A stretch of 64,000 bases of DNA from Cloacibacillus sp. An23 (GCF_002159945.1 NZ_NFJQ01000006.1:62001-126000), one strand, 5' to 3'. Positions 24,410-28,003 are shown, counted from the stretch's first letter. Numbers and translations: made by a program. Notes: generated by a model not told the origin, from the sequence alone.

Positions 24410-24895
24410 ATGTCTGGCAGTTTATTGAAACGCGCGGGAAAGGTAACGGCGGCGTTCATAGCGCTGACGATGGCGGCGGGGTGCTCGGCGGCGTTGGCGG
24501 CTCCGAAGCCGGGGCCGAAGCCCGGAGGGCCGGGGATACACAAGCCCGCTCCGCACCAGGGGCCTGGAATAGGCAAACCCGGGCCTGGGAAGCCCGGACC
24601 GGGAGCGCCTGGAAACAGACCGGGGCCTGGAATAGGCAAACCCGGGCCGGGCAAGCCTGGCCCCGGAGCGCCGGGAATGAACAGGCCCGGCCCAGGAAAG
24701 ACGGGGCCTGGAATAGGAAAGCCGGGGCCAGGCAAGCCTGGGCCCGGAGCGCCGGGAATGAACAGGCCCGGCCCAGGAAAGCCAGGGCCAGGAATCGGTA
24801 AGCCCGTGCCTGGAAAGCCAGGGCCGAAGCCCGGACACGCCGGACCCGGAATGAACAGGCCGGGGCCCGGAAAGCCGGGGCCGGTCAGGATATAA
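24410..24895 (+). CDS. Exported Gly/Pro-rich repeat protein (array member 1)
   Basis: This 161-aa protein opens with a signal peptide (MSGSLLKRAGKVTAAFIALTM then AAGCSAALAA). The Cys in AAGC could be a lipidation site, although the preceding residues are not ideal for a lipobox. The mature chain is almost entirely Gly, Pro, Lys, Ala, Met, Asn and Arg in units such as GPGIGKPGPGKPGPGAPG and GMNRPGPGK. Periodicity is not the strict G-X-Y of collagen. GGGGAG lies 9 nt before the ATG. It lacks the glycine-zipper C-terminus of members 2, 3 and 5. Function unknown; a surface or periplasmic extended polypeptide is likely. Confidence 0.75.
   Translation: MSGSLLKRAGKVTAAFIALTMAAGCSAALAAPKPGPKPGGPGIHKPAPHQGPGIGKPGPGKPGPGAPGNRPGPGIGKPGPGKPGPGAPGMNRPGPGKTGPGIGKPGPGKPGPGAPGMNRPGPGKPGPGIGKPVPGKPGPKPGHAGPGMNRPGPGKPGPVRI
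24561..24812 (+). repeat. 63/81-bp tandem repeats inside array member 1
   Basis: Successive copies of GGCCTGGAATAGG-like starts fall at 24561, 24624, 24705 and 24786, that is one 63-bp and two 81-bp periods (21 and 27 codons). The 81-bp units are nearly identical at DNA level, implying recent duplication. Confidence 0.8.
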
Positions 24896-24961
24896 ACGAA
24901 GATAAGACGACGGCGAGCGATAAGCCGTTATTCTGGAATACGAAAAGCGAGGTGACGGCTT

Positions 24962-25273
24962 ATGATTAGTAAGCTTCTGAAAAAATTTGGAAAGATAGTC
25001 GCGCTTGCTGCGATCGCGGCGACGGTAGCGGGAAGCTCTGCGGCTCTGGCGGCCCCCGGGCCGGGGCACGGCCCGATGAGACCGGGCCCAGCGATGCACG
25101 CGCCGGGCCCTGGGCCGCACACGCCTCCTCCGCCCAAGCCGGCTCCGAGACCGCCGAGGCCGGTTCCGCCTCCGCCTCCCGCTCCGCATCACGGCGGCTC
25201 CGGCGGCTTCGTGACGGGCGCCGTGATAGGCGCGGTACTCGGTACGGTCGTAGGGAGCGCGCTGAACAACTAG
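24962..25273 (+). CDS. Exported proline-rich protein with glycine-zipper C-terminus (array member 2)
   Basis: This 103-aa protein has a signal peptide (MISKLLKKFGKIVALAAIAAT, cleavage near ALAAPGPG), a short Pro/Gly/His-rich middle (PPPPKPAPRPP, PPPPPAPHH), and a hydrophobic C-terminus GGFVTGAVIGAVLGTVVGSALNN. The GxxxG-type spacing could make a membrane-inserting or oligomerising helix. GAGG lies 9 nt before the ATG. The signal region is plainly paralogous to the other array members. Function unknown. Confidence 0.75.
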   Translation: MISKLLKKFGKIVALAAIAATVAGSSAALAAPGPGHGPMRPGPAMHAPGPGPHTPPPPKPAPRPPRPVPPPPPAPHHGGSGGFVTGAVIGAVLGTVVGSALNN

Positions 25274-25280
25274 GCGGACC

Positions 25281-25310
25281 GGCCGGGCCGAAAAGGCCCG
25301 GCCTCTTTCC
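25281..25310 (+). terminator. Terminator after array member 2
   Basis: A 9-bp GC stem GGCCGGGCC/GGCCCGGCC with loop GAAAA is followed by a T-rich stretch. It separates members 1-2 from members 3-5. Confidence 0.8.
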
Positions 25311-25329
25311 TACGCTACGTGGAGTTGGC

Positions 25330-25357
25330 TTAAACTCATGACTGCATTTTCTATAAT
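25330..25357 (+). promoter_or_regulatory. Candidate promoter for array member 3
   Basis: TTAAAC (25330-25335) and TATAAT (25352-25357) are spaced 16 bp in an AT-rich region (25330-25470) that encodes nothing. An inverted repeat AGATAA...TTATCT follows the -10. Confidence 0.5.
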
Positions 25358-25514
25358 ATTTTACAGATAAGATTTTTATAATTTATCTTTTAGTGCCAAT
25401 ATTTTATATTTTTCACTTAAAATTCATGAAAACTGCATGAAATAATCGCGCTCGGATGCTATCATGTGGAACGGAAAGGTTTTTTTACTCTATTAAGAGA
25501 ACGGAGTGAACCGC

Positions 25515-26294
25515 ATGAGTGAATGTCTTTTGAAAAAATTTACCCGTATGGCCGCGCTCGTTACGGCGATCGCGATGACGGCGGGCGCAGGCGCGTATGC
25601 GGCGCCGGGACAACCGCAGGAAAATCAACGGCAGGAAAGGCCGCAGCCGCAGCGCCCCGGACAGCCCGGAAACCAGAAGCCGGGCCAGCAAAAACCCGGA
25701 CAGCCCGGAAACCAGAAGCCGGGCCAGCAGAAACCCGGACAGCCCGGCAGCCAGAAACCCGGCCAGCAGAAACCCGGACAGCCCGGCAGCCAGAAGCTGG
25801 GCCAGCAAAAGCCCGGACAGCCCGGCAGCCAGAAGCCGGGCCAACAGAAACCCGGACAGCCCGGCAGCCAGAAGCCGGGCCAGCAAAAGCCCGGACAGCC
25901 CGGAAACCAGAAGCCGGGCCAGCAGAAACCCGGTCAGCCCGGCAGCCAGAAACCGGGACAGCCGAAGCCAGGACAGCCAGGAAACCATAAGCCGGGGCAG
26001 CAGAGACCGGAAAATCACGGAGTGAACAAGCCTGCGCCTAAGCCAGCGCCGCAGCATACCGGGCCGGCTCCGAGCAGACCGGCTCCGCATCCCGCGCCGT
26101 CCAAGCCGGCCCCGACGCCGCCGAAGCCAGTCCCCCCGCAGCCGGCGCCTCCGGCTCCATATCATGACGGCGGCTATTACTACGACAACGACGATGATGA
26201 CAGCGACGGCGATTTCATCAAGGGGGCCCTTATAGGGGCGATTCTGGGGGTTGTGGTCAACAACGTGATCAGCAACAGCAACAGCGGAAACTAA
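25515..26294 (+). CDS. Exported Gln/Pro/Gly/Lys repeat protein with glycine-zipper C-terminus (array member 3)
   Basis: This 259-aa protein has a signal peptide (MSECLLKKFTRMAALVTAIAM, cleavage near AYAAPGQ), then eight near-perfect 13-residue repeats of the form (N/S)QKPGQQKPGQPG (about residues 53-156), a Pro/Ala/Lys segment, an acidic-aromatic spacer (YYYDNDDDDSDGD), and the hydrophobic tail FIKGALIGAILGVVVNNVI. The ATG at 25515 has GGAG 8 nt upstream; GTG at 25506 is less likely. The highly basic extended region followed by an acidic patch is notable. Function unknown; likely envelope-associated. Confidence 0.77.
   Translation: MSECLLKKFTRMAALVTAIAMTAGAGAYAAPGQPQENQRQERPQPQRPGQPGNQKPGQQKPGQPGNQKPGQQKPGQPGSQKPGQQKPGQPGSQKLGQQKPGQPGSQKPGQQKPGQPGSQKPGQQKPGQPGNQKPGQQKPGQPGSQKPGQPKPGQPGNHKPGQQRPENHGVNKPAPKPAPQHTGPAPSRPAPHPAPSKPAPTPPKPVPPQPAPPAPYHDGGYYYDNDDDDSDGDFIKGALIGAILGVVVNNVISNSNSGN
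25671..25982 (+). repeat. 39-bp tandem repeat, eight copies
   Basis: Eight 39-bp units encode 13-residue repeats, all in frame; a ninth, degenerate unit follows. Differences are mostly Asn/Ser at position 1 and single substitutions (one unit has KLGQ). Such an array can expand or contract without a frameshift. Confidence 0.9.
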
Positions 26295-26527
26295 GGGACG
26301 GCGCGCGCTCTTCTATCTATGGAAGTCCGCAGAGAGTGCGAGCGGTTATGCTCGTGGCAAAAGCGCGTATCCGGCGTTTAGGGAAACGCGCGCCCGCCGT
26401 TATTGTTATTCTGAACCGCGCGTCCGTGCTCTGAAAACGGCTCGCAATCTGCCTGAGTATTCGCGCGGGTAACCCGTGACTTAAAATCTGCCGCTCTGAA
26501 TAGGGCGGCAAGAATGGAGTGATGTGT

Positions 26528-26899
26528 ATGAAAGAAAGCTTTTTCAAGAAAACTGGACGCCTGACCGCCGCGATCGCGGCGGCTGCGATGGTGGCCGGAG
26601 TGTCCGCGGCCTACGCCGCGCCGCCGCCTCCGCCGAAACCTGCGCCCGCCCCGCAGAAGCCGGCTCCTAAGCCTGCGCCCAAGCCGGCCCCTAAACCGGC
26701 CCCGAAGCCTGCGCCCAAGCCGGCCCCTAAACCGGCCCCGAAGCCTGCGCCCAAGCCGGCCCCTAAACCGGCCCCGAAGCCTGCGCCCAAACCGGCTCCC
26801 AAGCCCGCTCCGAAGCCCGCGCCCAAACCTGCCCCGAAACCCGGCCCGCAGCACCCGGCGCCGACCCCGAACCATCCGGGCCCTGCCCCTCATAAGTAA
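26528..26899 (+). CDS. Exported (Lys-Pro-Ala-Pro)n protein (array member 4)
   Basis: This 123-aa protein has a signal peptide (MKESFFKKTGRLTAAIAAAAM, cleavage near AYAAPPPP) followed by about 16 KPAP tetrapeptides and a tail rich in Pro, His and Gly. It lacks the glycine-zipper C-terminus. Such Lys-Pro-Ala-Pro stretches are rigid, extended, periplasm-spanning segments in TonB-like proteins, but no TonB domain or membrane anchor beyond the signal is present. ATG at 26528 has GGAG 8 nt upstream. The gap 26295-26527 holds no gene that I can see. Confidence 0.75.
   Translation: MKESFFKKTGRLTAAIAAAAMVAGVSAAYAAPPPPPKPAPAPQKPAPKPAPKPAPKPAPKPAPKPAPKPAPKPAPKPAPKPAPKPAPKPAPKPAPKPAPKPAPKPGPQHPAPTPNHPGPAPHK
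26672..26779 (+). repeat. 36-bp perfect tandem repeat, three copies
   Basis: Three identical 36-bp units (starts 26672, 26708, 26744) each encode three KPAP tetrapeptides. Identity at every third codon base implies very recent duplication or gene conversion. Confidence 0.93.
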
Positions 26900-26975
26900 A
26901 ACGCAGGCGGCGGCCTATGACCGCCGCTTACGGATTTTGTCGGAATCGTAAGAAAAGGAAACGGTGATTTTGTAT

Positions 26976-27344
26976 ATGAAGGAAAGCTTTTTGAAAAAAT
27001 GCGGACGCGCGACGGCTTTGTTCGTCGCAGTTACGATGATGACGGGGATTTCCGCAGCCGCCTTCGCGGCTCCGGGACAGCCGCCGAGAGAGCCGGGCCC
27101 CGGGCCTCAGCAGCCAGGCCCGCAGAAACCAGGACAGCCCGGGCAGCCGGGCAAGCCGGGGCCGCAGAAGCCGGGGCCGGCGCCTCAGCCCGCTCCCGCT
27201 CCGAAGCCGGCTCCCCAGCCCGCGCCGCCGCAGCCGGCCCCTCCCGCGCCCCGCTATTATGACAAGGACGACAATGACGATTTCGTAAAGGGCGCGCTCA
27301 CGGGAGCCGTGCTCGGGGTAGTCATCGACCGGGTAATAAAATAA
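26976..27344 (+). CDS. Exported proline-rich protein with glycine-zipper C-terminus (array member 5)
   Basis: This 122-aa protein has a signal peptide (MKESFLKKCGRATALFVAVTM, cleavage near AFAAPGQP), a Pro/Gly/Gln-rich middle (QKPGQPGQPGKPGPQKPG then PAPQPAPPQP), an acidic spacer (YYDKDDNDD) and tail FVKGALTGAVLGVVIDRVIK. Its order of segments equals that of array member 3 with a shorter repeat. ATG at 26976 has GGTGA 8 nt upstream. It is 16 bp upstream of the next exported protein and likely co-transcribed with it. Function unknown. Confidence 0.76.
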   Translation: MKESFLKKCGRATALFVAVTMMTGISAAAFAAPGQPPREPGPGPQQPGPQKPGQPGQPGKPGPQKPGPAPQPAPAPKPAPQPAPPQPAPPAPRYYDKDDNDDFVKGALTGAVLGVVIDRVIK

Positions 27345-27360
27345 AGGAGGATATCCAAAT

Positions 27361-27789
27361 ATGGGCAGATTCGTCAGCATATTCGCCGCTCTCGCGCTCG
27401 TGCTCTGCGCATCGGCTTCGGCCTTCGCCGAAAACTACGTCGAGATAGACCGCCACGGCACCAACATCGTCTACATAGACACCGACTCCATCGTAGACGA
27501 GGGAAGCTACGTGACCGCGGTCTCGAAGGTCGCCATCCGGACGAAGGAGGCTCGCGAGCAGTTCAAAGAGCGCAGCGGCGTAGAAGCGAACTATCTCTAC
27601 CTCACCTTCGCCTATAAAAAGGACGCGAAGCAGGATCAGTTCCTCTCCGCGCGCGCCGTCTACGGCATAGAGGAGACCGGCGCCCAGAGCCGCGAATTCT
27701 CGGACGAGCACTGGCGCGACATCCCGAAGGACTCCCTCGGCGAAAAAACGCACGACTGGGTGATAAACTACGCGGCGCAGCAGAAATAA
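27361..27789 (+). CDS. Exported protein of unknown function after the proline-rich array
   Basis: This 142-aa protein has a signal peptide (MGRFVSIFAALALVLCASASAFA) and a compact mature domain beginning ENYVEIDRHGTNIVYIDTDSI and ending SLGEKTHDWVINYAAQQK. The pattern (alternating beta strands, Trp-x-x-Ile-Pro near the end) resembles small periplasmic or surface-adhesin-E-like proteins, but I cannot assign a family. GGAGG lies 10 nt before the ATG. It is unlike the preceding five proteins in composition, and its close spacing to array member 5 suggests a shared role. Confidence 0.75.
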   Translation: MGRFVSIFAALALVLCASASAFAENYVEIDRHGTNIVYIDTDSIVDEGSYVTAVSKVAIRTKEAREQFKERSGVEANYLYLTFAYKKDAKQDQFLSARAVYGIEETGAQSREFSDEHWRDIPKDSLGEKTHDWVINYAAQQK

Positions 27790-27827: not shown

Positions 27828-27864
27828 GCCGGGCTTTGGAATTCCATCCGAAGCCCGGCTTTTT
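27828..27864 (+). terminator. Terminator after the exported-protein array
   Basis: A 9-bp stem GCCGGGCTT/AAGCCCGGC (loop 14 nt) is followed by five Ts. Confidence 0.92.
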
Positions 27865-27971: not shown

Positions 27972-28003
27972 TTGACTATACATAAATGTTAGCATAAACT
28001 AAC
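27972..28003 (+). promoter_or_regulatory. feo promoter with overlapping inverted repeat
   Basis: TTGACT (27972-27977), 17 bp, TAAACT (27995-28000). A perfect inverted repeat GTTAG-CATAAA-CTAAC (27988-28003) covers the -10. Its first 13 bases differ by two substitutions from the box at the DtxR-family gene (13208-13220), so it is a candidate iron-regulator operator. Confidence 0.5.

Follow-up and report, generated by a model that had tools for sequence, protein, structure and literature searches.

Five consecutive genes (g1 to g5) of Cloacibacillus sp. An23, a gut bacterium of the phylum Synergistota, are paralogues that have a common signal segment at the N-terminus, differ in the proline-rich repeats that follow it and, in three cases, also have in common a C-terminal glycine-zipper helix; they are followed by a sixth gene (g6) whose product is predicted to adopt the protein E fold. 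The chances that g1 to g5 encode Sec-exported cationic polyproline envelope spacers, some of them anchored by their C-terminal helices, with the protein-E-fold product of g6 as partner, are judged to be about even. The genes lie on contig 6 of a 2.9 Mb genome, within the 64,000-nucleotide stretch of DNA analyzed here (the window), where an earlier note had described five open reading frames and a further one 16 bp past g5; the coordinates agree, and all are located on the + strand together with the following features.

24410 to 24895, +: g1, 161 aa; signal peptide, basic GPGKPG-type repeat, mature pI ∼12, without a C-terminal anchor.
24962 to 25273, +: g2, 103 aa; signal peptide, Pro-rich region, HH/Gly tract, C-terminal glycine-zipper helix.
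25281 to 25303, +: terminator-like hairpin 3′ of g2 (pattern scan only).
25360 to 25465, +: AT-rich stretch that holds promoter-like sites, 5′ of g3 (pattern scan only).
25515 to 26294, +: g3, 259 aa; signal peptide, nine 13-aa PGQPG(N/S)QKPGQQK repeats, KPAP-rich segment, YYYDNDDDD tract, glycine-zipper helix.
26528 to 26899, +: g4, 123 aa; signal peptide, at least 15 PAPK repeats, mature part 50% Pro, without a C-terminal anchor.
26976 to 27344, +: g5, 122 aa; signal peptide, Pro-rich region, RYYDKDDNDD tract, glycine-zipper helix.
27361 to 27789, +: g6; predicted exported protein with a signal peptide and a predicted protein E/surface-adhesin E (PF16747) fold, strong ribosome-binding site.
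27828 to 27859, +: terminator-like hairpin between g6 and feoA, 13-bp stem and T tail (pattern scan only).

The start of g3 is the ATG at 25515, the GTG at 25506 being a mechanical start only. Hairpins with a T tail were found by pattern scan after g2, after g6 and also at the close of the glutamate dehydrogenase (GDH) gene upstream of the array, while no Rfam element was found in the array region. With a hairpin after g2 and promoter-like sites before g3, g1 to g5 and g6 probably do not form a single operon, and the pattern matches would divide them into a g1–g2 and a g3–g6 transcription unit, with the feo genes apart. A link to iron uptake through the downstream feoA and feoB was considered and rejected on account of the strong terminator-like hairpin and the separate TTAGCATAAACTAA site upstream of feoA. 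This site (window positions 27989-28002), which recurs in the sister species, is possibly an iron-regulator site.

The paralogy of g1 to g5 is most evident in the signal segment. At E < 1e-15, a profile of this segment found g1 to g5 and no other place in the whole 2.9 Mb genome, the next match being at E 0.057. Since that profile had been trained on g1 to g5 themselves, leave-one-out models were run in which four signal segments served to find the fifth among all six-frame segments of the window. Every member was recovered at an E value between 1.2e-6 and 1.8e-14 (g1, 3.6e-10; g2, 2.1e-7; g3, 1.2e-6; g4, 1.8e-14; g5, 5.2e-12) against 0.17 for the best non-member, which bears out the proposal of the earlier note that the five are paralogues with a common N-terminus. 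Judged by sequence, g1 to g5 and their relatives carry the basic n-region, the hydrophobic h-region and the following AxA of a Sec/signal peptidase I substrate, the putative cleavage site of g1 to g5 lying at about residue 30, so that the Sec-type export signal previously proposed for all five is also predicted here. The signal motif itself is common to the five and looser than was first written, reading SKLLKK in g2 and ECLLKK in g3, with AAPG found only in g2, g3, and g5 and replaced by AAPKPG in g1 and AAPPPP in g4. A lipoprotein reading of g1, whose signal contains TMAAGC, was not adopted because the cysteine occurs in the orthologue and in no other paralogue, and because AxA follows. Recent duplication of whole genes was likewise rejected, as the 5′ coding DNA is just 61–71% identical among g1 to g5; the genes are thus diverged copies, in which only the inner repeats look recent.

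The mature parts contain 23–50% Pro, with a pI of 9.5–12 and a net charge of +3 to +20, a composition consistent with the extended repeat polymers envisaged earlier. Scans of g1 to g5 against Pfam and NCBIfam gave nothing above cut-off, low-complexity matches falling far below it, and a scan of g2, g3, g5, and g6 against PHROGs gave no match above cut-off for g2, g3, and g5, in keeping with the view that g1 to g5 belong to no characterized family. At the DNA level the array holds tandem repeats of 36, 39, and 81 bp. Among the 15 PAPK units of g4, all pairwise differences (265/265) are third-position and synonymous; in g3, synonymous changes account for 118 of the 170 codon pairs that differ, and first-position differences are absent. 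This pattern indicates that the repeats expanded as DNA and were kept as peptide and, judged from their codons, they are real protein-level features under selection. The repeats had been called fast-evolving, which is true between species, where they are re-made (the g1 repeat of the sister species differs in sequence and is the same in character), but not of the g4 units, which vary by synonymous change alone. Other reading frames, including long antisense and shifted open reading frames, were rejected because it is at third codon positions of the called frame that the repeat units differ from one another, and a collagen-like g1 because its glycines, read directly in the sequence, keep no GXY period. 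Near-neutral expansion of slippage-prone, GC-rich repeats behind a signal peptide, leaving extra copies with little function, would account for the tandem DNA repeats, the variable copy number among relatives (0–5) and the remnants in one relative that show the locus to be dispensable; it is nevertheless considered very unlikely, given the synonymous-only variation of g4, the synonymous excess of g3 and the conservation of the signal and anchor segments.

The second conserved segment is found in g2, g3, and g5, and is lacking in g1 and g4. It is composed of an acidic/aromatic (H/Y/D-rich) tract and a single C-terminal helix in which small residues recur at glycine-zipper spacing (for example DFIKGALIGAILGVVVNNVI, of the g2/g3/g5 type), and is also present in the single-copy relatives that were found. 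Leave-one-out models of the C-terminal segments recovered g2 (7.9e-5), g3 (2.5e-11), and g5 (5.1e-10) in the window; taken with the signal models, this makes g2, g3, and g5 alike at both ends and unlike in mid-protein, and g1 and g4 alike at the signal end only. The export segment had been described as conserved and the rest as divergent, a description that is correct for the signal and overlooks the helix retained by these three proteins. Hydropathy maxima over 19 residues reach 1.6–2.3 at the C-terminus of g2, g3, g5, and their relatives and are absent in g1 and g4, although the C-terminal helices might pass the translocon because their hydrophobicity is borderline (1.59 in g5). In the AlphaFold2 model of g5, which is of low confidence (pLDDT 63), helices are present only at residues 2-24 and 98-121, with nothing between them.

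The conserved tail helix in three of the five proteins suggests anchored rather than free polymers. An extracellular matrix built of secreted cationic Pro/Gly polymers that have no anchor, with the C-terminal helix as an aggregation motif, would fit the anchorless g1 and g4, the tandem internal repeats and the strongly basic character, but no outer-membrane export route was found, and conservation of the tail, both in the array and in single-copy relatives, makes this reading unlikely. Sec-secreted bacteriocin-like or antimicrobial peptides, for which a short basic chain with a GxxxG-type helix and a match of the sister-species g2 to Bacteriocin_IIc (E 0.35, a hint only) might speak, are highly improbable: a double-glycine leader is absent, no dedicated exporter or immunity gene was seen at the locus, the Pro-rich stretches are long, and g6 is predicted to have a different, known fold.

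The product of g6 had been described as a compact exported protein, which is also how it is predicted here; it is not anonymous, being predicted to adopt the protein E/Adhesin_E fold. Its AlphaFold2 model (pLDDT 84, pTM 0.72) was matched by Foldseek with a probability of 1.00 to protein E of H. influenzae (3zh5, 3zh6, 3zh7, 6gus, 6gut), which accounts for nine of the 11 top matches, at a query TM of up to 0.53 and an identity of about 11–15%. Against PF16747 (Adhesin_E), g6 scores 16.8 bits (E 0.0086), below the curated cut-off of 23.7, and its orthologue in genome G059 scores 19.6 bits. Relatives in three other Synergistaceae genomes (G005, G007, G011) pass the cut-off, and the g6 profile picks them up at E values of 2e-6 to 1e-13, which ties g6 to the family by sequence too, while a sequence search of the PDB with g6 found no relative, the fold search alone finding one. 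Among the fold matches was also the muramidase TdeM, which means that the fold by itself does not say adhesin. Adhesin_E-like genes are also found in another Synergistaceae genus (G062 C158; L044, L048, L050), where they stand in tandem and alternate with genes for larger exported Gly-rich proteins.

Protein E of Haemophilus is a surface adhesin, and the Pro-rich proteins could accordingly be stalks that present a protein-E-like adhesin, or could themselves bind mucus or extracellular matrix in the gut, as a host- or matrix-binding module of the cell surface. The predicted fold of g6 and the change of repeat sequence from one species to the next, a trait of many surface proteins, would agree with this, as would the chicken-gut habitat of sister genus members (PMC8035907). 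The low identity to protein E, the score of g6 under the PF16747 cut-off, a locus at which no surface route was found and a fold match that is not a function, TdeM having been matched too, leave such a module rather unlikely.

Comparison with related genomes found the locus to be orthologous across Synergistaceae (G001, G039, G059 and, in decayed form, G015). In the nearest relative, Candidatus Caccocola faecipullorum (G001, DVKA01000286.1; Synergistaceae, Synergistota), whose neighboring GDH is 97.9% identical to that of the window, the order is GDH, g1′, g2′, g6′, feoA, feoA, feoB (primes denote orthologues), and g2′ and g6′ are separated by ∼250 bp with a hairpin between them, so that the pairing of Pro-rich genes with g6 is not absolute. 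Two other genera have a single anchored Pro-rich gene 12 bp before the g6 orthologue, the genes being listed as feoB, feoA, feoA, g6 orthologue, Pro-rich gene in G039 and as Pro-rich gene, g6 orthologue in G059 (JAUNJZ010000004.1, Synergistaceae bacterium S2R_St_13); g5 is the positional counterpart of this gene. G015, of the same genus as G039, retains GDH, chromate-transporter-like genes, the tail of a Pro-rich gene and a truncated g6, with feoA-feoA-feoB farther on; the remnants of the anchored gene and of g6 (L075:5515-5794) lie 10 bp apart and, to judge from their sequence, the two decayed jointly.

The exact signal family was found, in the genomes searched, only in the genus that comprises the window species and Ca. 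Caccocola faecipullorum. The tail profile matched just 12 of 151 genomes of the order, several of them weakly, and the proteins are therefore not a core envelope part. A first scan of genome contigs with g5 as the query gave no match, and the weak profile matches in other families proved, when checked, to be out of frame or unrelated in several cases and distant Pro-rich/zipper proteins in a few. The paralogy of g1 to g5 and a copy number higher in the window (five) than in the sister species (two) and in other genera (one) support the origin by duplication proposed earlier. Most simply, a single anchored gene, coupled to g6, gave rise to two in Caccocola and to five in the window species; alternatively, copies were lost in the sister species.

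As envelope spacers, the array proteins would be cleaved at AxA, and the mature chain, mostly Pro with Lys, Gly, Gln, and Ala, would be a stiff and extended rod, polyproline-II-like, with lysines that would bind anionic polymers of the wall or outer membrane. In g2, g3, and g5, as in the single-copy genes of other genera, this rod would end in the acidic/aromatic tract and a glycine-zipper helix that would be inserted in the membrane and probably self-associate, while g1 and g4 would be soluble spacer versions and g6 the likely partner of the anchored proteins. Export and rod-like extension are suggested by the signal and the composition, anchoring by the tail helix, and partnership with g6 by the gene pairing in three genera and the joint decay in G015; the side of the membrane on which the rods would lie is likewise putative. 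Synergistetes are reported to have a diderm envelope with OmpM-type tethers (PMC9388160), and two proteins encoded in the window genome have SLH domains and a size like that of OmpM; OmpM-type proteins are therefore probably the main tether of the outer membrane, to which g1 to g5 would be accessory. That SLH-type proteins are already there for tethering counts against the spacer reading. For Synergistota, most of what is known about wall-to-membrane links concerns SLH proteins of OmpM/SlpA type (PMC9388160), and basic stiff repeats, an anchor-like tail and a protein-E-fold neighbor together make a testable candidate for an accessory envelope part, in which the array may be the partner of one of the scattered Adhesin_E-like proteins of the phylum. 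A wider conjecture, that anchored cationic polyproline rods of varied lengths and a protein-E-fold partner form a lineage-specific Synergistaceae spacer system that sets or braces the distance between membrane and wall and diversifies by gene duplication and repeat expansion, is regarded as doubtful.

The categorical claim of a new envelope system goes too far, since exported Pro-rich proteins, like those with glycine zippers, are of common kinds and Synergistaceae offer related architectures elsewhere. The literature, searched for periplasmic proteins rich in proline and with a glycine zipper, gave no matching system. G015 and G039 each have two more tandem Pro-rich/zipper genes near an ftsZ-like gene (L073:5441-6374 and L074:4743-5659), with other signal segments and no g6 neighbor. 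An unlinked gene of the window genome itself (L006:1504-2745; G000:C7, ∼143.3 kb) encodes a signal peptide, a long Pro/Arg-rich region, a YYHRYHHWHDDW tract and a glycine-rich helix, followed at the C-terminus by a PDZ domain (PF00595, 30.2 bits, above cut-off), and a similar neighborhood is found in G060 C20. These proteins, and another in G059 C28, have the same domain order as the array proteins and a similar DD/HDGG-zipper segment; they differ in locus and signal segment, lack a g6 neighbor and, in one case, carry the PDZ domain. On this comparison, g1 to g5 are rated as a lineage-specific variant of ordinary, predicted exported Pro-rich/glycine-zipper proteins.

Among families of wider distribution, glycine zipper 2TM proteins (PF05433, Rick_17kDa_Anti) are likewise small exported proteins with a G/A-spaced hydrophobic helix after an H/Y/D-rich tract, whereas g2, g3, and g5 have one helix, not two, at the extreme C-terminus. 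Correspondingly, g2 scores 16.6 bits, below the cut-off of 24.2, and matches profile positions 19-41 of 43, each protein having one hydrophobic segment besides the signal; g3 and g5 gave no match to PF05433, and nothing in the whole genome scored above its cut-off. The protein E family (PF16747; PDB 3ZH5/3ZH7/6GUS) resembles g6 in predicted fold, but the identity to the solved protein E chains is low (11–14%), g6 scores below the Pfam cut-off, and its gene neighbor encodes an anchored Pro-rich protein. Like g1 to g5, the periplasm-spanning Pro-rich region of TonB is extended, non-globular and Lys-Pro/Pro-rich, with an anchor at one end, and may work alike; the array proteins are not members of that family, as they lack the TonB C-terminal domain, have their anchor at the C-terminus rather than the N-terminus and have no ExbBD at the locus.
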